Assembly: GCF_016412875.1 (NCBI RefSeq)
Contig: NZ_JAEKPD010000014.1
Span: 62,001-126,000 of the forward strand
Direction: 5' to 3'
DNA: 64,000 bases
From: Palleronia pontilimi
Lineage (GTDB): Bacteria > Pseudomonadota > Alphaproteobacteria > Rhodobacterales > Rhodobacteraceae
Shown here: positions 26,389 to 36,253 of the stretch, in pieces
Numbering within the stretch: the first letter of the stretch is position 1
Layout: each line of letters starts with the position of its first letter
Position numbers and translations under genes: made by a program
The notes under the pieces: generated by a model
Told to the model about the DNA's origin: nothing
Database searches by the model: none
The model's input: the letters and a program-made list of their open reading frames with translations, nothing else

Positions 26389-27411
26389 CTACCGGCCCCG
26401 CACGATCTGCTCCATCAGAAGCGGACCGCCAAAGCCGCCGGACTTGGTGGCGATTTGCAGCATGCCCCACGGAACGCGAACCGTGCTGATCGGCAGGCCG
26501 GGCGCGAGCTCGGCCACGACGTCCAGCACGCCGATATCCAGGCGATCGAGGATTGCCTGCGCCGTCTCGCCGCCCGTCGCCAGCAGCGCCGCGGGTCGTG
26601 CGGCGCGCAGGTGGCTCACGACCGCCTCGGCGAAATCCCGGGCGGCGTCGGCGGGCGCGCGCCCCGCGCCACTGTCGGTCATCTGCAGGATACCGACCGG
26701 TTCGCGCTCGATGATGCCGGCAACGCGCCCATCGGGAAGGGCGGTCACCGGCGCCAGGTCGTGCAGAACGTCCACCTGCCGCAGCGTGATCGGATCGCGA
26801 GAGCCCACGGCGATCACCAGCGGACGGCTCAGCCCTCCGCCGCCCGCCGTCACTCGGCCATAGAGCCGCCGCGCCAGCGCAAAACCCAGGCCCCTAGCAC
26901 CGACCCACAGCACGCGCCCTTCCACCCTGACCGCGTCATCCAGATGCGCATCCGTCGTCGCATCGGGGATCGTCACGGGCCGGTCGAACAGCGGCGCCAG
27001 CGCGATGGGGGCGTCGATCCCGTCGCCCGACACCGCGCCGTCCACCTGCACGCGACCCATCTGTGGCACGGCGGGCAGCACGACGATGCGCTCGGGCGCC
27101 ATCGCATCCGCCAACGCGGCACATTCCACGCCCACGTGACCCTTCAGACGCGAATCGACCTTCTTCATCACGACGGGCACTTTATCCACGTCGATCTGGC
27201 CCAGGCACGCGTCCATCCGCGTCCGCGCGGTCGCGGCATCTCCCTCGCGGCTGGCGAGGTTGACCGACAGCACCTCCGGCGCCCGCTCCAACGCTTCGGC
27301 GAGAAAGCTGACGCCGCGCGCAACCAGTACGCGGCGACCGCCACCCGCGAAGGCAACGGCGCTGTCTAGCGCCCCCGTCAGATCGTCGGCTATGATGAGA
27401 ACCTGCAACAT
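26389..27411 (-). CDS. Four-carbon acid sugar kinase family protein (DUF1537)
   Basis: A 340-residue DUF1537 kinase. Characterised members phosphorylate threonate or erythronate (or their 3-keto forms) with ATP. N-terminal substrate domain: [15 protein letters not shown], with the conserved Asp pair. C-terminal nucleotide domain: [13 protein letters not shown] and the final KSGGFGG. It is shorter than the usual ~420 residues, mainly in the middle, yet both signature ends are intact. The divergent PdxA2-type gene next door is the classic partner: kinase, then oxidative decarboxylation to dihydroxyacetone phosphate. The exact substrate is uncertain. Confidence 0.85.
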
Positions 27412-27501
27412 ACCCTCGGCACCCAGATCCCGGGAACGCTAGGCGCGACGCCGCGCCACTGCAACGCCCCCTGCCCCACGACGACCCAAAGGAGCACCGC
27501 C

Positions 27502-28473
27502 ATGACTGCCCCGATCCTGCTGACCATGGGCGATCCCGCCGGGGTCGGGCCCGAAATCACCGTGAAAGCCCTCGCCCAGCGCGACGCGGCCTTCCGCCGC
27601 CGGGTGACCGTCATCGGCGACCGCGCGGTGCTGGCGCGCGCGGCCAAGATCACCGGCGTGGACGTGCCCCTGGTGGATCCCGACGACGAAGCTGACGGGA
27701 TCCGCGTGACCCACGTGGCGACGGACGCTCTGCCGGACGGCTTCGGCGTGCAGGACCCGGCCTGCGGCGAGGCGAGCTTTCGCTACATCTCGGCCGCGGT
27801 GGACCACGCGCTGGCCGATCCGCGCCGCTGCATCGTCACGGCGCCCATCAACAAGGCTTCGCTGAACGCCGCGGGGCACCATTACGACGGGCATACGGGA
27901 ATGCTGGCGCACCTGACGGGCTCGAAATCGTCCTGGATGCTGCTGGCGTCGGAAAAGCTGAACGTGCTGCACGTCTCGACCCATGTCTCCCTGCGCGAAG
28001 CGATCGACCGCGCCACGACCGAACGCGTGCACGAGACCATCCGCATCGGCCACGCGCACCTGACGAAGATGGGCAATCCCGCGCCGCGCATCGCGGTCGC
28101 GGGGATCAACCCCCATTGCGGCGAGGGCGGTCTGTTCGGCAGCGAGGATGACGAGGCCATCGCCCCCGCCGTCGCCGCCGCCAGGTCCGACGGCATCGCG
28201 GTCGAGGGTCCGGTGCCCGCCGACACGGTCTTTCACCGCGCCTATCGCGGCGCCTTCGACCTGGTGATCGCGCAGTATCACGACCAGGGCCACATCCCGA
28301 TCAAGCTGGTGGCTTTCGACACCGCGGTGAACGTGTCGCTGGGCCTGCCCATCCACCGCTGCTCGGTGGATCACGGCACCGCCTTCGACATCGCAGGCAC
28401 GGGCAAGGCGGACCACGGCAACATGCAGTCGGCGCTGGACTACGCGGAACGGATCATCGCGTCCGGACGCTGA
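27502..28473 (+). CDS. PdxA2-type 4-phosphate dehydrogenase (threonate/erythronate pathway)
   Basis: A 323-residue PdxA-family enzyme. PdxA itself oxidises 4-phosphohydroxy-L-threonine in vitamin B6 synthesis; the PdxA2 branch works beside DUF1537 kinases and converts 4-phospho-threonate or -erythronate to dihydroxyacetone phosphate and CO2. Visible: [10 protein letters not shown] near the N terminus, [21 protein letters not shown], the metal-binding HDQGHIPIK and [13 protein letters not shown]. The start is ATG 27502 with AAAGGAG eight bases upstream. Its position beside the kinase and away from pdx genes supports the catabolic role rather than B6 synthesis. Confidence 0.87.
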
Positions 28474-29325: not shown

Positions 29326-30168
29326 TCACGTCCTCAGCGCGCGGGCGGTGTCCATGAACCGGCGCGCGCGATCTCCATCGACGGGATTCCACCAGACGCC
29401 GTCCTCTTTCAGGGACGAGCCGATGATGACGCCGCGAGCACGGGACAGGATGCGCTCGGCGTTCTCGACGGTGACGCCCGAGCCCACGATCACCGGCAGT
29501 CCGGTCGCGCCGACGATGGTTTCGAGTTCTTCGTTGGTGGCCGCGTCGCCGGTGCGTTGGCCGGTGGCAATCACCACTTCGGCGTCGAAGAATTCCAGGT
29601 CGCGCGTCAGTTCCTCGATGGACCTGTCCGCGGTGATGGCGTGGGCGCCGTGCTTGACGTGGCTGTCGGCGAACACCGCGACACCCTCGGCCGCAATGGT
29701 CTTGCGATAGCGCAAGGCGCGCGCCGCGTCGCCGTCCAACAGCCCTTCATTCGCCACGTAGGCATTGGCCCACTGGTTCACCCGGATGAACTGTGCGCCG
29801 CTGGCCGCCGCGACCGCGAAGGCAGGCAGCGGTGCGTTGGCAAGGATGTTTATGCCGGTGGGAAGACCGGTCGCCTCGATCACCCGGCGTGTGGCCGCCG
29901 TCATGAAGGCCGTCGTCTCGGGCCCAAGATCGTCGGGCCGCAGGAAGGGAATATCCCCGTGATTCTCGACGATCAGACCGTCGATCCCGGCCGCCGCGTA
30001 TGTCTCGGCATCGAAAAGCGCCGCATCGAGGATCTGGTCGAAAGACCGCCCGTCATGGCGCGGGCTGCCGGGGAAGGCCGGGCAGTGCACCACGCCGATC
30101 ACGGCGCGCTCAGTCTTGAAAATATTCAATATTGCATCGGTATCGGTCGACTTCGATGAAATGTTCAC
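29326..30168 (-). CDS. BtpA/SgcQ family TIM-barrel protein
   Basis: A 280-residue protein of the BtpA family, which includes SgcQ of the E. coli sgc sugar operon and BtpA of cyanobacterial photosystem I biogenesis; biochemical function is poorly known. Marks: RAVIGVVHCPAFPGSPR at the start, GIDGLIVENHGDIPF, the central NQWANAYVANEG, ADSHVKHGAHA, and the phosphate-binding-like GLPVIVGSGVTVENAE. I chose the GTG at 30168, preceded by GGAG, giving the usual family length; an open frame continues to 30255 without family sequence. It diverges from a sugar ABC transporter and shares its operator-like repeats, suggesting a metabolic enzyme of that pathway. Confidence 0.8.
   Translation of the reverse strand: MNISSKSTDTDAILNIFKTERAVIGVVHCPAFPGSPRHDGRSFDQILDAALFDAETYAAAGIDGLIVENHGDIPFLRPDDLGPETTAFMTAATRRVIEATGLPTGINILANAPLPAFAVAAASGAQFIRVNQWANAYVANEGLLDGDAARALRYRKTIAAEGVAVFADSHVKHGAHAITADRSIEELTRDLEFFDAEVVIATGQRTGDAATNEELETIVGATGLPVIVGSGVTVENAERILSRARGVIIGSSLKEDGVWWNPVDGDRARRFMDTARALRT
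30116..30129. promoter_or_regulatory. Inverted repeat TTGAA-N4-TTCAA, copy 1 (inside the BtpA/SgcQ-like gene)
   Basis: TTGAA-AATA-TTCAA matches the promoter copy at 30265-30282 in arms and spacing. It lies in the first codons of the minus-strand gene, a common place for a secondary operator that allows looping. The likely binder is the LacI-type domain encoded at the end of the transporter operon. Confidence 0.5.
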
Positions 30169-30264
30169 TCGTTTCACTCTCCGCTGCCTATCCGTTGTGC
30201 CCTTTTCAAACGCACGCACACCGAAAAAAGGAATGATTTGATTTATCTCCCACATAACGTCACT

Positions 30265-30282
30265 AATTGAAAATGTTCAATT
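30265..30282. promoter_or_regulatory. Inverted repeat AATTGAA-N4-TTCAATT, copy 2 (transporter promoter)
   Basis: Perfect 7-bp arms around AATG, an AT-rich site 20 bp before the transporter ATG at 30303. Its centre is about 151 bp from copy 1, roughly 14 helical turns, compatible with looping by a tetrameric LacI-family repressor. Confidence 0.6.
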
Positions 30283-30302: not shown

Positions 30303-31241
30303 ATGATCAGCTACGCGAAGACTGCCGCGGGCGCGCTCGTGTCCGGCCTTGTTCTGATGGGTGGTCCCCAGGCGGCCACGGCGCAAGACAACGATTACAC
30401 CATCTGCTTCGTGACCTTTTCGTTGCAGATCGAGTATTTCCAGCAATCCGTCGAGGGCGGCGAGCGCGCGGCCGAGGATCTGGGTGTCGAGTTGATCGTC
30501 TTCGACCCGCAGGCCGACGCCACGCGCCAGGTGACCCTGGTCGAGGATTGCATCGCCCGCCAGGTTGACGCGATCGTCGTGGATCCGATCGAAAGCAATT
30601 CGCTGATGGGGCCGATCGAGCAGGCGGCCGAGGCGGGCATTCCCATGGTCACGCTCGACACGCCCATCGACCACCCGAACGTGCTCAGCCTGATCGGCGT
30701 CGAGCAATACGCCACAAGCCGTGAATTCGGCCGCTACGTGGCGGGGATCATCGCGGCGAAGATGGACGGTGCGGCCAAGGTCGGCCTGATGATCGCGTCC
30801 TCCGAGGTGCAGATCGCCCGGCGCGACGGCTTCGTCGATGCCATCCAGGCCGTGCTGCCCGATGTCGAGATCGTGGCCGAAGGCGACGGCCGCAACATCC
30901 TTGAACGTGCCACGTCAGAGGCCGAGAATATGTTGACCGCGAACCCCGAGATCAACGTGATCTACGCGACCGGGGACCCGCAATTGCAGGGCGCGCTGGC
31001 CGCAGGCCTCAGCCAGAACCGCGATATCGCCTTCTTCGGCTGGGATGACGTGCCGGACTATTTCATCCCGCCGCTGCAAGAGGGCCGTTTGCAGGGGTTC
31101 CTGATGCAGTCGCCCGATTTCAACGGCGAACAGGGCGTGCGTCTGCTGGTCGATCACCTGAACGGCGAAGATATCCCGGCTCGGGTGTCCTATATTCCGA
31201 CCATAGTGACGCCGTTCAACCTGGAGCAGGTGAACCAGTGA
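30303..31241 (+). CDS. Sugar ABC transporter substrate-binding protein (CUT2/ribose type)
   Basis: Periplasmic sugar receptor, 312 residues, with a signal peptide ending AATAQ. The mature protein opens YTICFVTFSLQIEYFQQSVEGG, a type I periplasmic-binding fold of the RbsB/FrcB group, and contains DAIVVDPIESNSL and FFGWDDVP. The start is the ATG at 30303 with GGGAG nine bases upstream; a TTG at 30267 would break the signal peptide. It is first in a binding protein-permease-ATPase-kinase operon like frcBCA-frcK. The sugar is unknown; a ketose, pentose or nucleoside-derived sugar is possible. Confidence 0.88.
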   Translation: MISYAKTAAGALVSGLVLMGGPQAATAQDNDYTICFVTFSLQIEYFQQSVEGGERAAEDLGVELIVFDPQADATRQVTLVEDCIARQVDAIVVDPIESNSLMGPIEQAAEAGIPMVTLDTPIDHPNVLSLIGVEQYATSREFGRYVAGIIAAKMDGAAKVGLMIASSEVQIARRDGFVDAIQAVLPDVEIVAEGDGRNILERATSEAENMLTANPEINVIYATGDPQLQGALAAGLSQNRDIAFFGWDDVPDYFIPPLQEGRLQGFLMQSPDFNGEQGVRLLVDHLNGEDIPARVSYIPTIVTPFNLEQVNQ

Positions 31242-31299: not shown

Positions 31300-32313
31300 G
31301 TGAGCGATACGACATCCACCGGCAGCGGGGCCGCCACGCCCACCCGGCGCCAGCTGATCGTCGGGCTGGTCCGTTACGGCATGTTCATCGCGCTGGCGTT
31401 GTGGCTGGTGGCGATGAGCCTGGCATCCGAATACTTCCTGACCCCGACCAACATCCTGAACGTCATGCGCCAGGCCGCGCCCGTCATCATCATCGGAGTC
31501 GGGATGACCTTCGTGATGGCGACGGCGGGGATCGATTTGTCGGTGGGCTCGACCGTGGCGCTGGTCTCGGTGCTGACCGCGGGCTGGCTGGCGCTGGGCC
31601 TGCCCGCCTGGGTGGTGCTGCCGCTTGTGCTGGCCGTGGGGGCCGCCGTGGGGATGGCCAACGGCTTCATCATCACCTTGGGCGTTCCGGCCTTCGTGGT
31701 GACGTTGGCGGGCCTGACCTCGATCCGCGGGTTCGCCTTCGTCTATTCCGACGGCTACGCCACGCCGATCACCGATCCGGTGATGATCTGGATCGGTCGC
31801 GGCGACATTCTGGGCGTCAACACCCCCTTCGCCATCTCCATCGCGGTGGCCGTGCTGGGCTGGTTCCTCTTGAACCGCACGCGGTTCGGCCTGCACGCCC
31901 TGGCCACGGGCGGCCGCGAGGAAGCGGCGCGCGTCATGGGGCTGGCCATCAATCGGATCAAGATCCTGGTCTATGCAATGACCGGCGCGCTGGCCGCGCT
32001 GGCGGGAATCGTCGTGTCGGCACGGCTGTCGAACGGCTCGCCCAATTCGGGTGTGATGCTCGAACTCGAGGTCATCGCCGCCACGGTCCTGGGCGGCACC
32101 AGCCTGTTCGGCGGCCGGGCGACGATCGCGGGCACGGTCGTGGGCGCGCTGCTGATCTATTTCGTGCGCAACGGTCTGAACCTGCTGGGGGTCAATCCCT
32201 ACTGGGTGCAGGTGGTCACCGGGATCATTCTGGTGGTCGCGGTGCTGATGAACACCGTTCTGAACCAGAAGGTCGAAAGCTGGGCTCGCGCCGCCGGGGA
32301 GGACGAGTCATGA
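31300..32313 (+). CDS. Sugar ABC transporter permease (CUT2 family)
   Basis: Membrane subunit, 337 residues, RbsC/FrcC type, with about ten hydrophobic segments. Landmarks: GVGMTFVMATAGIDLSVGS, ANGFIITLGVPAFVVTL, and the coupling region NRTRFGLHALATGGREEAARVMGL. The start is GTG at 31300, just after GGAGGC, and the stop overlaps the ATPase start as ATGA. CUT2 systems use one permease gene as a homodimer, consistent with a single copy here. Confidence 0.9.
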   Translation: MSDTTSTGSGAATPTRRQLIVGLVRYGMFIALALWLVAMSLASEYFLTPTNILNVMRQAAPVIIIGVGMTFVMATAGIDLSVGSTVALVSVLTAGWLALGLPAWVVLPLVLAVGAAVGMANGFIITLGVPAFVVTLAGLTSIRGFAFVYSDGYATPITDPVMIWIGRGDILGVNTPFAISIAVAVLGWFLLNRTRFGLHALATGGREEAARVMGLAINRIKILVYAMTGALAALAGIVVSARLSNGSPNSGVMLELEVIAATVLGGTSLFGGRATIAGTVVGALLIYFVRNGLNLLGVNPYWVQVVTGIILVVAVLMNTVLNQKVESWARAAGEDES

Positions 32314-33080
32314 GCGCCAACCTGATCGAAATGCGCAACATCTCGAAATCCTTCGGCGCGGTCACGGCGCTCAGCGATGTGACGTTGACCCTGCCGCACG
32401 GTTCGGTCCTGGGCCTGGTCGGCGACAACGCCGCGGGCAAGTCCACGCTGATGAAGGTGCTGGCGGGCGCGATCACCCCCGACCGCGGCAAGATCCTGAT
32501 CGACGGCGCGCCCGGGCGTTACAGCCACCCCATCGGGGCGCGCGACGCGGGGATCGAAATGATCTATCAGGATTTCGCGCTGGTGCCCGATCTGACCGTC
32601 GCGCAGAACATCTTCCTGGGGCGCGAGATCATGCGCAGCGTGGCGGGCGTCCCGATCCTCGACCGGAAGACCATGAGCGCCCGCGCGCGCGAGCTTTTCG
32701 CGGGGCTCGGGCTGCGGGTGCCGTCGGTGACGCTGCCGGTCGTGGCGCTGTCGGGCGGCCAGCAGCAGGCCGTCGCCATCGCGCGGGCGACGGCCTTCAA
32801 CGCACGGCTGGTCATCATGGACGAACCCACGGCCAACCTGGGCGCGCCCGCCATCGAGAAGGTGCGCGAGACCATCACCCGCCTGAAAGAGAACGGCGTC
32901 GCCGTCATCATCATCAGCCACCGGCTCGAGGACATCTTCGCCATCGGTGACGCCATGATGGTGATGAAGCAGGGCCGGGTCGTGGGCACCCGCGCCGTGG
33001 ACGACACCGAAAATGCCGAGATCGTCGAGATGATCGTCACCGGCCGGGATCCGCGGGAACGGACCGCGGTTCCGGCATGA
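32310..33080 (+). CDS. Sugar ABC transporter ATP-binding protein, single-domain CUT2 type
   Basis: A 256-residue ATPase with Walker A GDNAAGKST, Q-loop MIYQDFALVPDL, signature ALSGGQQQAVAIARA, Walker B LVIMDEPTANLG and H-loop IIISHRLED. Most CUT2 ATPases (RbsA type) have two fused halves of about 500 residues; this one is single like FrcA of Sinorhizobium. It overlaps the permease upstream and the LacI-PfkB fusion downstream by four bases each, so the five genes are tightly coupled. Confidence 0.9.
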   Translation: MSANLIEMRNISKSFGAVTALSDVTLTLPHGSVLGLVGDNAAGKSTLMKVLAGAITPDRGKILIDGAPGRYSHPIGARDAGIEMIYQDFALVPDLTVAQNIFLGREIMRSVAGVPILDRKTMSARARELFAGLGLRVPSVTLPVVALSGGQQQAVAIARATAFNARLVIMDEPTANLGAPAIEKVRETITRLKENGVAVIIISHRLEDIFAIGDAMMVMKQGRVVGTRAVDDTENAEIVEMIVTGRDPRERTAVPA

Positions 33081-34258
33081 GGCCCAAACCCGGCCTGGCC
33101 GATGTCGCGCGGACAGCGGGCGTGTCCATGGGCACCGCGTCGAACGTGCTGAACAATCCGGACCGGGTGCGCCCGGCAACCCGCGCCAAAGTCTATCGCG
33201 CCATGCGCGACCTGGGATACGGGCACAAAGGCGTGGTCTTTCCCGCCGATCCGCCCGTCGGCGCCGCCCCCGTCCCCGAATGGGGCGGGGACAGGCCGTT
33301 CCTGATGACGCTGGGCTATATCTCGGTCGATTTCCTGGCCCGGATCGACGTGATGCCCCATCGCAACGACCGCGTGACGGGCGAAAGGATCTCGAAGCAT
33401 CTGGGCGGCCCGGCCGCCAACGTGGCCGTCGCCGCGGCTGGACTCGGGGGCCCGTTTGCCCTGGATGTGGAGCTTGCGACCGCCATAGGCCGCGACCCCG
33501 ACAGCCTGTGGGCGCTGGAACAGCTGGCGCAGCGCGGCGTGCGGGCCCGCGCCATCCGTCATCCCGAACGCCATCGCCTGTCGCGCTGCATCGTCCTTCT
33601 GGAATCCGATGGAAGCCGCACCAAGGTGAACGAACCGCTGACGCTCAGCGGCCCCGAGCTTCTGCCGCGGCTGCCTTCCAGCCCCGTCCGCCGCCGATCG
33701 CATCTGCACGCGGATGGCTATCAGGCGGGTGTCATCCTGCCGCTGGCCGACCGGCTGCACGAGCTCGGCTTCACGCTCAGCGTCCATGACACCGGGCTGG
33801 ATCCAAGCCACTTCTGCGGCGACGGCTTCGCGGATCTGGTGCGCCGCATGGATCTGGCGTTCCTGAACCGCAGGTCCGCCGGTTGGATCCTGGGCCAGTC
33901 GCTGGCGACCAGCCATCTGATCGCGGCGTTCGCCAGGCATCTGACCGAGATCGCGGACCGCAACGACGTGGTGCTGACGCTTGGGCCGGATGGCGCGGTG
34001 GTGTTTCCACGCGACGCCACCGAGCCTCTGCGCGTCATGGCCCCGTCCACCGACGTGGTCGATGGAACAGGCGCGGGCGACAGCTTCATCGGCTGCTACT
34101 TGGCGCAGCGCCTGCACCAGGTCGATCCCGCGATGGCGGCCGAACGGGCCTGCCGGGCCGCCAGCCTGAATATGACCGCCGAGGGCGCGCAAGGCCGCAT
34201 CGCCAGCGCCGCCGACCTCGGAGTGACCGAGCTTCTTGCCGAAACCGGGGCGCCGTGA
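33077..34258 (+). CDS. LacI-type DNA-binding domain fused to PfkB-family carbohydrate kinase
   Basis: A 393-residue fusion. Residues 6-48 are a canonical LacI helix-turn-helix with hinge (LADVARTAGVSMGTASNVLN, then VRPATRAKVYRAMRDLGY). Instead of the usual sugar-binding domain, a full PfkB kinase follows from about residue 75. It shows KHLGGPAANVAVAAAGLGG (substrate/ATP lid region), SRTKVNEPL, NDVVLTLGPDGA and the catalytic DGTGAGDSFIGCYL with the base Asp. A ribokinase-type protein that also binds DNA would report sugar or nucleotide state directly to the promoter. It starts with ATGA overlap after the ATPase and ends in GTGA overlap with a second PfkB gene. Its probable targets are the two TTGAA-N4-TTCAA sites near 30.1-30.3 kb. 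Confidence 0.87.
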   Translation: MRPKPGLADVARTAGVSMGTASNVLNNPDRVRPATRAKVYRAMRDLGYGHKGVVFPADPPVGAAPVPEWGGDRPFLMTLGYISVDFLARIDVMPHRNDRVTGERISKHLGGPAANVAVAAAGLGGPFALDVELATAIGRDPDSLWALEQLAQRGVRARAIRHPERHRLSRCIVLLESDGSRTKVNEPLTLSGPELLPRLPSSPVRRRSHLHADGYQAGVILPLADRLHELGFTLSVHDTGLDPSHFCGDGFADLVRRMDLAFLNRRSAGWILGQSLATSHLIAAFARHLTEIADRNDVVLTLGPDGAVVFPRDATEPLRVMAPSTDVVDGTGAGDSFIGCYLAQRLHQVDPAMAAERACRAASLNMTAEGAQGRIASAADLGVTELLAETGAP

Positions 34259-35160
34259 CCGTCTGGGTCGTGGGCAACGTGACCGAGGACCACACCTTCG
34301 CTGTGGATCGACTGCCGCGCGCCGGTGAAACCCGCTTGGCGCGCAGCCACCGGACCGAGTTGGGCGGCAAGGGTCTGAATCAGGCGCTGATCCTCGCGCG
34401 CGCCGACATCGCGACGCGGCTGGTCGCCCCGATCGGTCGCGATGCGCCGGGCCGGGCGGCCCGCGCCATGGTCGCGGCCGAAATCCCCGGCGCCACGCTG
34501 ATCGAAACCGATGCCCCCACCGACCGCTCCATCATCACGGTTGCCGAGGGCGGCGAGAATTCCATCCTTTCGACAGCCGCGGCCGCACGTTCGATGACCC
34601 CTGCGGCGGCGGTGGCCGCGCTTGCGGATCTCTCGCCGGGCGACACGGTGCTGTTGCAGGGCAATCTGACGCGCCCCACGACCCGGTCCGTGCTTGAGTT
34701 GGCGCGCGCGCGCCGTGCCGCGACCGTTGCGAATCCGTCGCCCATCGAATGGGATTGGACTCCTCTCTGGCCGTTGCTGGATCTGGTCTTCGTGAACGCG
34801 CCCGAGCTTGCGCACCTCTCCGGCGCCCGCGACACCACGGGCGGATGCCGCGCGCTGCTCGATCTTGGACTTCGTGAGCTGGTCGTGACGCTTGGCGCGG
34901 ACGGCGCACTCGCGGCGTCAAGGGAAGGAACCGTCTCGGTGTCGGCAATCGCAGTCGAGCCTGTCGATACCGCCGGTGCCGGGGATACATTCTGCGGGGC
35001 CTACCTCGCGGCGACATTGCGCGGACGGTCACCGGAGGCGGCGCTGGGCATCGCCGCCAGTGCCGCGGCTCTGACCGTGGGGCGCCCCGGCACGCACGGC
35101 GCCTTTCCCGATCGGACCGAACTGTCGGCTTGCTTCGGAGATCAGGTGGCATCCTCGTGA
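34255..35160 (+). CDS. PfkB-family carbohydrate kinase (ribokinase-like)
   Basis: A 301-residue kinase of the ribokinase family. It has the N-terminal WVVGNVTEDHTFAVDRLPRAGET, the TELGGKGLNQALILARA glycine motif, VFVNAPELAHLSG, LVVTLGADGALA and the DTAGAGDTFCGAYLAA signature with catalytic Asp. The start is GTG at 34255, overlapping the stop of the LacI-PfkB fusion. It probably phosphorylates the sugar imported by the upstream transporter. With two kinases in tandem, one may serve as the true enzyme and the fused one mainly as sensor. Last gene of the operon. Confidence 0.88.
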   Translation: MTVWVVGNVTEDHTFAVDRLPRAGETRLARSHRTELGGKGLNQALILARADIATRLVAPIGRDAPGRAARAMVAAEIPGATLIETDAPTDRSIITVAEGGENSILSTAAAARSMTPAAAVAALADLSPGDTVLLQGNLTRPTTRSVLELARARRAATVANPSPIEWDWTPLWPLLDLVFVNAPELAHLSGARDTTGGCRALLDLGLRELVVTLGADGALAASREGTVSVSAIAVEPVDTAGAGDTFCGAYLAATLRGRSPEAALGIAASAAALTVGRPGTHGAFPDRTELSACFGDQVASS

Positions 35161-35590: not shown

Positions 35591-35800
35591 ATCCCCAGCC
35601 CGACCGCAATGCTGATCTCGGATGCCTTTGACGCCAGCCAAAAGACCCAGCGAGAGAGCGCGTAGGAAGTGGGCTTCCCGAGAGCGAACGTCATCTCGAT
35701 GCTGCGCTTAGGCGAGATGCGTCTCCCCATCGAAAGGTGCCCTGCCCTCGCCAGGTCGCCCGGGATCGACGAGCGGCATCTGATCAAGACGGCCATGACG
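35591..35800 (+). pseudogene. Remnant of a small XRE-like HTH gene (copy A)
   Basis: Translation gives SPTAMLISDAFDA, then an in-frame TAG, then VGFPRANVISMLRLGEMRLP, then IERCPALARSPGIDERHLI. This aligns residue for residue with the second copy at 43524. The start codon is lost (ATC), a stop interrupts helix 1-2, and the 3' end abuts the IS110 remnant. It is a clear dead paralogue of a short helix-turn-helix protein. Confidence 0.75.
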
Positions 35801-35803
35801 GAA

Positions 35804-36253
35804 ACCGCGCACCTCGTTGGCCAGATCAATGGTCTTGCTGAGCAAGGCCCTGCGCGTGCTCAAAAGAGCCCGGTTAGAATGGGCCTCACGGCTCTTCAAT
35901 TGAACGGGACCGAACCAATCCGTCCGCAGGATGTGGGCGATACCGCGCGTATCGTTGAGATCCGTCTTGTTCCGCATCGCATACAGGGCAGCACTCACCT
36001 GGCGCGCCTCCATGCAGGCGACGTCAAATCCTTCCGCGGTCAGACCGTAGAACAGATTCCGGCTCAGGGTGCCGGACTCGAAGCAGATGCGTTCGACCCA
36101 GACGGAAAGCGCGGCCAGATACGCCGATATCTCCTCGATCTCACAAGGCAGTTCCCGCTCACACGGAACCTTGCCTTTACCGTCAACGACACAAACCGCG
36201 CACGAATGCAGCGATACATCCAATCCCGCAAGATACTCCGTTCGAAATCTCAC
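35804..36253 (-). pseudogene. IS110-family transposase remnant (N-terminal DEDD domain only)
   Basis: About 150 codons of an IS110 transposase: YLAGLDVSLHSCAVCVVD with the first Asp, VERICFESGTLSRNLF with the Glu, MEARQVSAALYAMRNKTDLND with the last acidic pair, and IAHILRTDWF. The C-terminal Ser-containing transposase_20 domain is missing. After LANEVRG the frame continues as antisense of the XRE remnant, so this is the deletion joint. Non-functional. Confidence 0.85.

Follow-up and report, generated by a model that had tools for sequence, protein, structure and literature searches.

The window, by which we mean the whole stretch of 64,000 nucleotides that was analysed, carries an operon that encodes, in this order, a periplasmic sugar-binding protein, a permease, an ATPase, a protein in which a LacI-type helix-turn-helix (HTH) is fused to a PfkB kinase (LacI-PfkB) and a second PfkB kinase (Pfk2), with a gene of the BtpA/SgcQ family in divergent orientation (Table 1). 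At both ends the fusion gene shares 4 nt with a neighbour: its ATG (33077) lies in the end of the ABC ATPase gene (33080), and its own stop in the GTG start of the second PfkB gene. This agrees with an earlier note on this DNA, which had placed the fusion at the end of a CUT2 transporter operon and in overlap with a second PfkB kinase; we find it near the operon end, with binding protein, permease and ATPase of the CUT2 ABC system upstream. The start ATG of the binding-protein gene at 30303 was inferred from a signal-peptide-like N terminus, and the GTG start of btpA at 30168 from homologues, the mechanical ORF extending to 30255. Convergent genes for a four-carbon acid-sugar kinase (SBD_N/NBD_C) and a PdxA-family protein are located close to the BtpA gene (26389-28473), a pair resembling that of a D-threonate-type pathway. 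Just past the operon lies an ORF on the minus strand (35708-36253) that we take, by eye, to resemble the N-terminal part of an IS110-type transposase, which suggests a mobile-element scar at the operon end. No single sugar substrate follows from the neighbours found here and in related loci (BtpA, TenA, GATase1-like, PTE-like, M20, ribose-1,5-bisphosphate-isomerase-like and SIS proteins) or from the solved relatives, and for BtpA a phmmer search at E 0.001 returned no relative in the PDB.

Table 1. Features of the LacI-PfkB locus with their positions in the window.
Feature	Position	Strand	Basis
LacI-HTH/PfkB fusion protein, 393 aa	33077..34258	+	ORF; Pfam LacI and PfkB; 16 further full-length homologues
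LacI helix-turn-helix, residues 7-48	33095..33220	+	PF00356, E 1.4e-14
Linker/hinge, residues 49-75, no canonical hinge helix	33221..33301	+	YGHKGVVFPADPP versus YRPSxxARxL in 13 Rhizobiaceae-type homologues; pLDDT <50 at 51-64
PfkB (ribokinase-like) domain, residues 76-373	33302..34195	+	PF00294, E 1.1e-33; Foldseek
NXXE position, reads N264-R-R-S267, Glu lost	33866..33877	+	Aligned against E. coli ribokinase and PfkBs including Pfk2
D-G-T-G-A-G-D (329-335), anion hole and catalytic Asp	34061..34081	+	DxTGAGD in 17/17
Second PfkB kinase (Pfk2), ribokinase-like, NXXE intact (NAPE)	34255..35160	+	Pfam; alignment
CUT2-type ABC ATPase, single NBD	32310..33080	+	Pfam/NCBIfam
CUT2-type ABC permease	31300..32313	+	Pfam/NCBIfam
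Periplasmic sugar-binding protein	30303..31241	+	Peripla_BP_4; ribose-binding proteins among PDB matches
Divergent BtpA/SgcQ family gene	29326..30168	-	PF03437, E 7.4e-71
Proximal operator (candidate) TTGAAAATGTTCAA	30267..30280	.	Pattern scans; conservation in relatives
Distal operator (candidate) TTGAAAATATTCAA	30116..30129	.	Pattern scans; L009 also with two exact sites
Candidate promoter TTGATT-17-CACTAA (weak), abuts proximal operator	30238..30266	+	By eye

Both domains of the fusion (PF00356 and PF00294) exceed the curated Pfam cut-offs, in line with the LacI DNA-binding domain read by the earlier note, and no Pfam domain besides these two was found in the protein up to E 0.01. With NCBIfam the best 25 of 33 matches all stayed below the cut-offs and belonged to PfkB/ribokinase-type and LacI-type models. 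A second copy of the fusion is absent from its own genome, where the other five of six hits are weak and each falls inside one domain. The homologue search that the earlier note had proposed yielded 16 further full-length LacI-PfkB proteins, 34-66% identical to the window protein. As all of them keep both domains, the fusion is not a sequencing or annotation artefact, and a chance fusion or a frameshift was rejected on the same 17 full-length loci. HTH, ATP motif and catalytic DxTGAGD are retained in 17 of 17 members, and the loss of the HTH in close homologues, named in the earlier note as an observation that would speak against its reading, was thus not seen.

In the AlphaFold2 model (14 alignment rows; mean pLDDT 81.9, pTM 0.78) a low-confidence linker connects three head helices to an alpha/beta kinase domain, in which the strands 83-92 and 100-110 may form the kinase lid, with low confidence in the 90s. 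Foldseek returned 409 chains at E 0.001 or better, of which the best 50 are all PfkB/ribokinase-type kinases; the top PDB matches are the sulfofructose kinase YihV and ribokinases. Neither these best 50 chains nor the Pfam matches contain a ROK fold, and none of the 60 listed out of 117 family-profile matches is a solved structure spanning head and kinase, each best stretch covering one part.

The alignment of the 17 full-length proteins comprises the window protein, two from its family (L009 and L010), L096, L012, L097, L098 and ten from the family sample of a Shinella genome. In the sample of the window's family 3 of 394 genomes matched at E 1e-30 or better, the own genome included, and in the class sample 2 of 385 at E 1e-20, namely the own genome and one kinase-only match. 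The Shinella family sample (presumably Rhizobiaceae) gave 13 of 394 at E 1e-15, 11 covering the HTH and two kinase-only, while the order sample for Shinella gave 2 of 297, both among the relatives found before. The phylum sample yielded 2 of 299, the own genome and one with the place and score of G1045, presumably the same genome. One kinase-only match was found among 112 genomes sampled from the phylum of a Streptomyces genome and none among 111 from that of a Paenibacillus genome, a sample without a positive. Named plasmid records contributed 3 of 72,556 at E 1e-20 (Roseivivax marinus 64%, Rhizobium sp. WYJ-E13 42%, Rhizobium etli 8C-3 40%), and a search with the Shinella protein added two Rhizobium plasmids, whose matches span just 40% of the query. 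A scan of genome contigs with two narrow peptide patterns found at least one full-length relative among 80 loci, in Shinella sp. SUS2 (41%); the distribution given here rests on the samples. Across these samples the fusion is seldom found, and its occurrence is limited to two alphaproteobacterial groups. In Rhizobium sp. T1473 (L112, 10316-10771), and also in T1470, only the first ~150 residues of LacI-PfkB match, and an exact TTGAA-N5-TTCAA site is still present near this partial match, which is a decayed copy.

CUT2-type transporter genes adjoin the fusion in 16 of 17 loci, and the neighbourhoods fall into three types. Type A (window, L009 and L096) has the gene order described above with BtpA divergent, and TenA follows in two of the loci. 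In type B (n=8: L012, L097, L098 and L118-L122) the fusion gene is followed by genes for a GATase1-like protein (8/8), ATPase, binding protein, two permeases and an M20 deacylase (8/8), and in seven of the eight loci no other PfkB gene was found within ~19-21 kb. Type C (n=5, L113-L117) has the order LacI-PfkB, ATPase, binding protein, two permeases and a further kinase, PfkB3, together with ribose-1,5-bisphosphate-isomerase-like and SIS genes (5/5 each). In the remaining locus, L010, the BtpA, Pfk2 and LacI-PfkB genes have as their neighbour an ABC system whose genes cluster with L096 genes annotated as peptide-type ABC components. A second PfkB accompanies the fusion in 9 of 17 loci, or in 10 if the Pfk2 near L121 is counted. 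L009 (1-12000) bridges the context types, with two CUT2 systems around LacI-PfkB, one a window-type module and the other an ATPase/binding protein/two-permease module with TenA and SIS. Beside the fusion in L112 and L121 we noted a second cluster with BtpA, Pfk2, TenA, an M20 enzyme (allantoate-amidohydrolase-like in L112), GATase1-like and PTE-like proteins and another CUT2 transporter, approximately the gene set of L144. In L098 (343-9376, plasmid pRsp8C3a of R. etli 8C-3) the operon adjoins a type I restriction-modification system and, according to the annotation, a Kiwa KwaB-like gene.

Searching the window for TTGAA-N4-TTCAA with at most one mismatch gave two sites, both exact, where 0.56 were expected; since two or more occur in 11 of 100 shuffles, the count in the window alone is weak, and it is the conservation in relatives that carries the case for these candidate operators. 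In the genome (3.72 Mb) the exact pattern occurs at three places, two of them at the start of this operon, and the reversed control pattern at none. The third place lies inside an ORF which we take to be rplE (ribosomal protein L5), and a larger regulon in the own genome, as far as exact N4 sites go, was rejected on this count. The distal operator lies within the first codons of btpA, if btpA starts at 30168. A scan for consensus promoters found nothing at the window operon, and the promoter listed in Table 1 is accordingly weak.

In the 200 bp that precede the fusion gene, 13 of 13 Rhizobiaceae-type loci have a single exact N4 site and a single exact N5 site, with the N4 centres at -18.5 to -26.5 and the N5 centres at -109 to -158 from the chosen start. 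The distance between the two is 84.5 bp in one locus, 93.5-95.5 bp in four and 131.5-135.5 bp in eight. The window and L009 have two exact N4 sites each, at distances of 151 and 163 bp. Exact sites are lacking in L096, which carries two N4 sites with one mismatch before the binding-protein gene, out of four such hits in 21 kb; L010 has one just before the binding-protein ORF, the sole one in 19.5 kb, and a second candidate with two mismatches further upstream. When L096 and L010 are set aside, the half-sites in the remaining 15 loci, all of which have exact sites, are paired at spacing 4 in 17 cases and at spacing 5 in 13, against one pair for the spacings 0-3 and 6-10 together; Markov shuffles gave 0 to 0.004 exact pairs per region and spacing. 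Hexamers similar to -35 and -10 elements, ~17 nt apart, end at the N4 site as judged by eye (e.g. TTGACG-17-TACGCT in L012 and L098), and a site directly after a -10-like hexamer is the place of a repressor at the presumed transcription start. The TTGAA sites thus look like real operators, as predicted from the sequence, and the presence of one ahead of the fusion gene itself in the Rhizobiaceae type points to autoregulation. The earlier note had proposed a kinase-based regulator that binds TTGAA-N4-TTCAA, and comparative genomics supports this, the operon promoter carrying exact sites in 15 of the 17 loci and one-mismatch sites in L096 and L010. We do not claim a strict helical phase for the paired sites: the distances of 84.5 and 93.5-95.5 bp lie roughly one turn apart, but those of 131.5-135.5, 151 and 163 bp are off a common phase.

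In LacI-type regulators the HTH is followed by a hinge helix with the consensus YxPNxxARxL. The canonical hinge that the earlier note had read in the window protein is not there, the sequence being YGHKGVVFPA. All three type A proteins (window, L009, L096) share this non-canonical form, YG[HP]K followed by VFPA, whereas the 13 Rhizobiaceae-type proteins have a canonical-looking YRPSxxARxL and L010 a roughly canonical YVPDVTAQAL. The proximal N4 sites of the Rhizobiaceae type (13/13, always xCGx) and the site of L010 have a CG centre; the window sites are even palindromes with the centres AATA and AATG, and none of the window, L009 and L096 sites has a central CG. Hinge type and central CG may thus covary between the clades, a link that is suggestive only, as it amounts to one covariation.

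Regarding the kinase domain, the residues D85, GG110-111, N115, TLG 301-303, D329 and T331 to D335 are invariant across the 17 proteins, as are the TLGxxGA ATP motif and GGxAAN. In a profile alignment to E. coli ribokinase, D85 corresponds to an Asp of its first strands and TGAGD to IAAGD; in such kinases the two bind the sugar and carry the catalytic base, respectively. The conservation of catalytic Asp, anion hole, ATP motif and sugar-site Asp/Asn favours kinase activity. The full ribokinase-like kinase that the earlier note had seen in place of the ligand domain therefore holds as to a complete PfkB domain with GAGD, but not at NXXE, which reads NRRS. The Glu at position +3 of this motif is found in 0 of 17 fusions; among 19 comparison kinases 12 have Glu and one Asp. 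With this Glu missing, the pocket of the fusion kinase is not fully canonical. The BtpA-linked Pfk2 proteins keep the Glu in six of six cases, and it is present in a further PfkB locus of the own genome, L131 (L138 did not align). It is missing from the five type C kinases, from L123 and from the kinase-only protein L143 (NAGL), and may therefore have been lost before the fusion arose. Its absence does not have to imply inactivity, and we rejected it as proof of a dead enzyme.

In a tree of 37 kinase domains the 17 fusions form one branch (support 100/97), which L143 joins (97/91); L143 and L010 are long rows and their placement is less certain. L143 lies in the locus L144 in a same-strand run of genes for BtpA, PfkB, binding protein, ATPase, permease, PTE-like and GATase1-like proteins, and no in-frame HTH was seen by eye before it. 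The simplest history would be a single event in which a pathway kinase captured a LacI head.

We consider it likely that the fusion is a local autogenous repressor of the sugar-uptake operon that senses the substrate, probably together with ATP, via its kinase fold. LacI-type heads, paired via a kinase body that we infer to dimerise, would hold the TTGAA-N4/5-TTCAA palindromes, one of which overlaps the transcription start while the second, 84-163 bp away, would allow a DNA loop. With the PfkB domain in the place of the periplasmic-binding-protein-like ligand domain, the imported sugar as presumed inducer (probably with ATP) would bind in the kinase pocket, close the lid and free the DNA, and the transporter and catabolic genes would be induced; any residual phosphorylation would be a putative property of the same pocket. 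Against this repressor we count the non-canonical hinge of the window protein and the low-confidence linker between kinase and head, the site distances (84.5, 93.5-95.5, 131.5-135.5, 151 and 163 bp), which are not all whole helical turns, the lack of an exact site in L096, the single one-mismatch site in L010, the missing NXXE Glu, the lack of a consensus promoter at the window operon and the site count in the window alone, which 11 of 100 shuffles equalled at up to one mismatch.

What the kinase contributes can be read in two ways. The fusion may be a true trigger enzyme, as the earlier note had inferred, an active kinase in which occupancy by the substrate, or turnover in phosphorylation, is the signal that releases the operator, and we give this nearly even chances. 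All 17 proteins keep DxTGAGD, TLGxxGA, GGxAAN and the N-terminal Asp unchanged, and as no other PfkB was found in seven of eight type B loci (~19-21 kb), LacI-PfkB may be the sole PfkB kinase there, although this comparison covered PfkB kinases, with the annotation of L098 for other families. The NXXE Glu is, however, absent from all 17, and types A and C and L010 have a second PfkB alongside. These same two observations, together with the Glu kept in all six BtpA-linked Pfk2 proteins, would suit a catalytically dead kinase that acts as a pure ligand sensor, as in BzdR or the ROK repressors. We regard such a sensor as quite possible, but the catalytic Asp and the ATP motif are invariant, and the kinase-only sister L143, the five type C kinases and L123 likewise lack the Glu.

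That the fusion is an activator or dual regulator of the operon instead of a repressor is improbable; activation would be compatible with the position of the distal site, which lies upstream of the promoter and is conserved in all 13 Rhizobiaceae-type loci, whereas the proximal site lies, as judged by eye, directly after the -10-like hexamer and over the presumed transcription start. Hardly credible is a catabolic kinase with a vestigial or non-regulatory HTH, as the names of the Roseivivax and R. etli homologues might imply: the HTH is kept in 17 of 17 proteins, and the sites are conserved in sequence and position. One form of the repressor reading, which we put forward tentatively, is an active sugar kinase that acts at the same time as its own repressor. 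On a single occasion a LacI head would have captured a former pathway kinase, from a BtpA/CUT2/GATase1-like/PTE-like operon, catalysis would have been kept, the paired (looped) operators would be freed while the active site is occupied, and the window-type branch would have lost the hinge helix together with the central CG.

Very probably, then, the fusion is a repressor of its own operon, and a metabolic enzyme fold seems to have been turned into a switch for its own sugar-uptake genes. If true, this would add a new sensor fold to the LacI family. The 17 fusions and their kinase-only sister form a compact natural set for the question of how an enzyme becomes a transcription factor, with catalysis kept, lost or used as a signal, and the paired sites make the prediction directly testable. 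A DNA-binding head swapped onto a kinase would also be useful for sensor building. As the two homologues with annotation (Roseivivax and R. etli) are called plain PfkB family carbohydrate kinases, similar regulators may be missed elsewhere.

In the open-licence literature, judged mostly from the opening parts of abstracts, we recognised no description of a LacI-PfkB fusion regulator. In the survey by Ravcheev et al. (2014, PMC4052901) the LacI family is defined by an effector domain similar to periplasmic binding proteins, sites are CG-centred for 1173 of 1303 LacI-family regulators and odd palindromes make up 4%, and in its main text a word beginning with kinase appears once, in connection with regulated genes. 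The fusions share with LacI/GalR factors the HTH (PF00356), the predicted local control of a sugar ABC operon and, in the Rhizobiaceae-type loci, CG-centred even palindromes. They differ in the PfkB kinase that replaces the effector domain and in the odd N5 palindrome that accompanies the N4 one, and the window type in addition lacks CG centre and canonical hinge. With PfkB/ribokinase kinases they have in common the fold, the ATP motif, GAGD, the N-terminal Asp and the Asn of GGxxxN (GGPAAN in the fusion versus GGKGAN in ribokinase), while the N-terminal HTH and the missing NXXE Glu set them apart. ROK repressors (NagC, Mlc, XylR) likewise join an HTH to a sugar-kinase fold that senses the sugar, but their kinase superfamily is unrelated and their HTH different. 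NadR, with HTH, adenylyltransferase and nucleoside kinase, is enzyme and repressor in one chain like the fusion, though with a different kinase fold and pathway. The nearest studied precedent we found for a regulator built on a small-molecule kinase appears to be BzdR, in which, according to its description (PMC3602430), an XRE-type HTH is joined to a shikimate-kinase-like domain whose enzyme activity is lost. Both are an HTH joined to a small-molecule kinase; HTH and kinase of the fusion come from other families, and in contrast to BzdR it keeps the catalytic Asp and the ATP motif.
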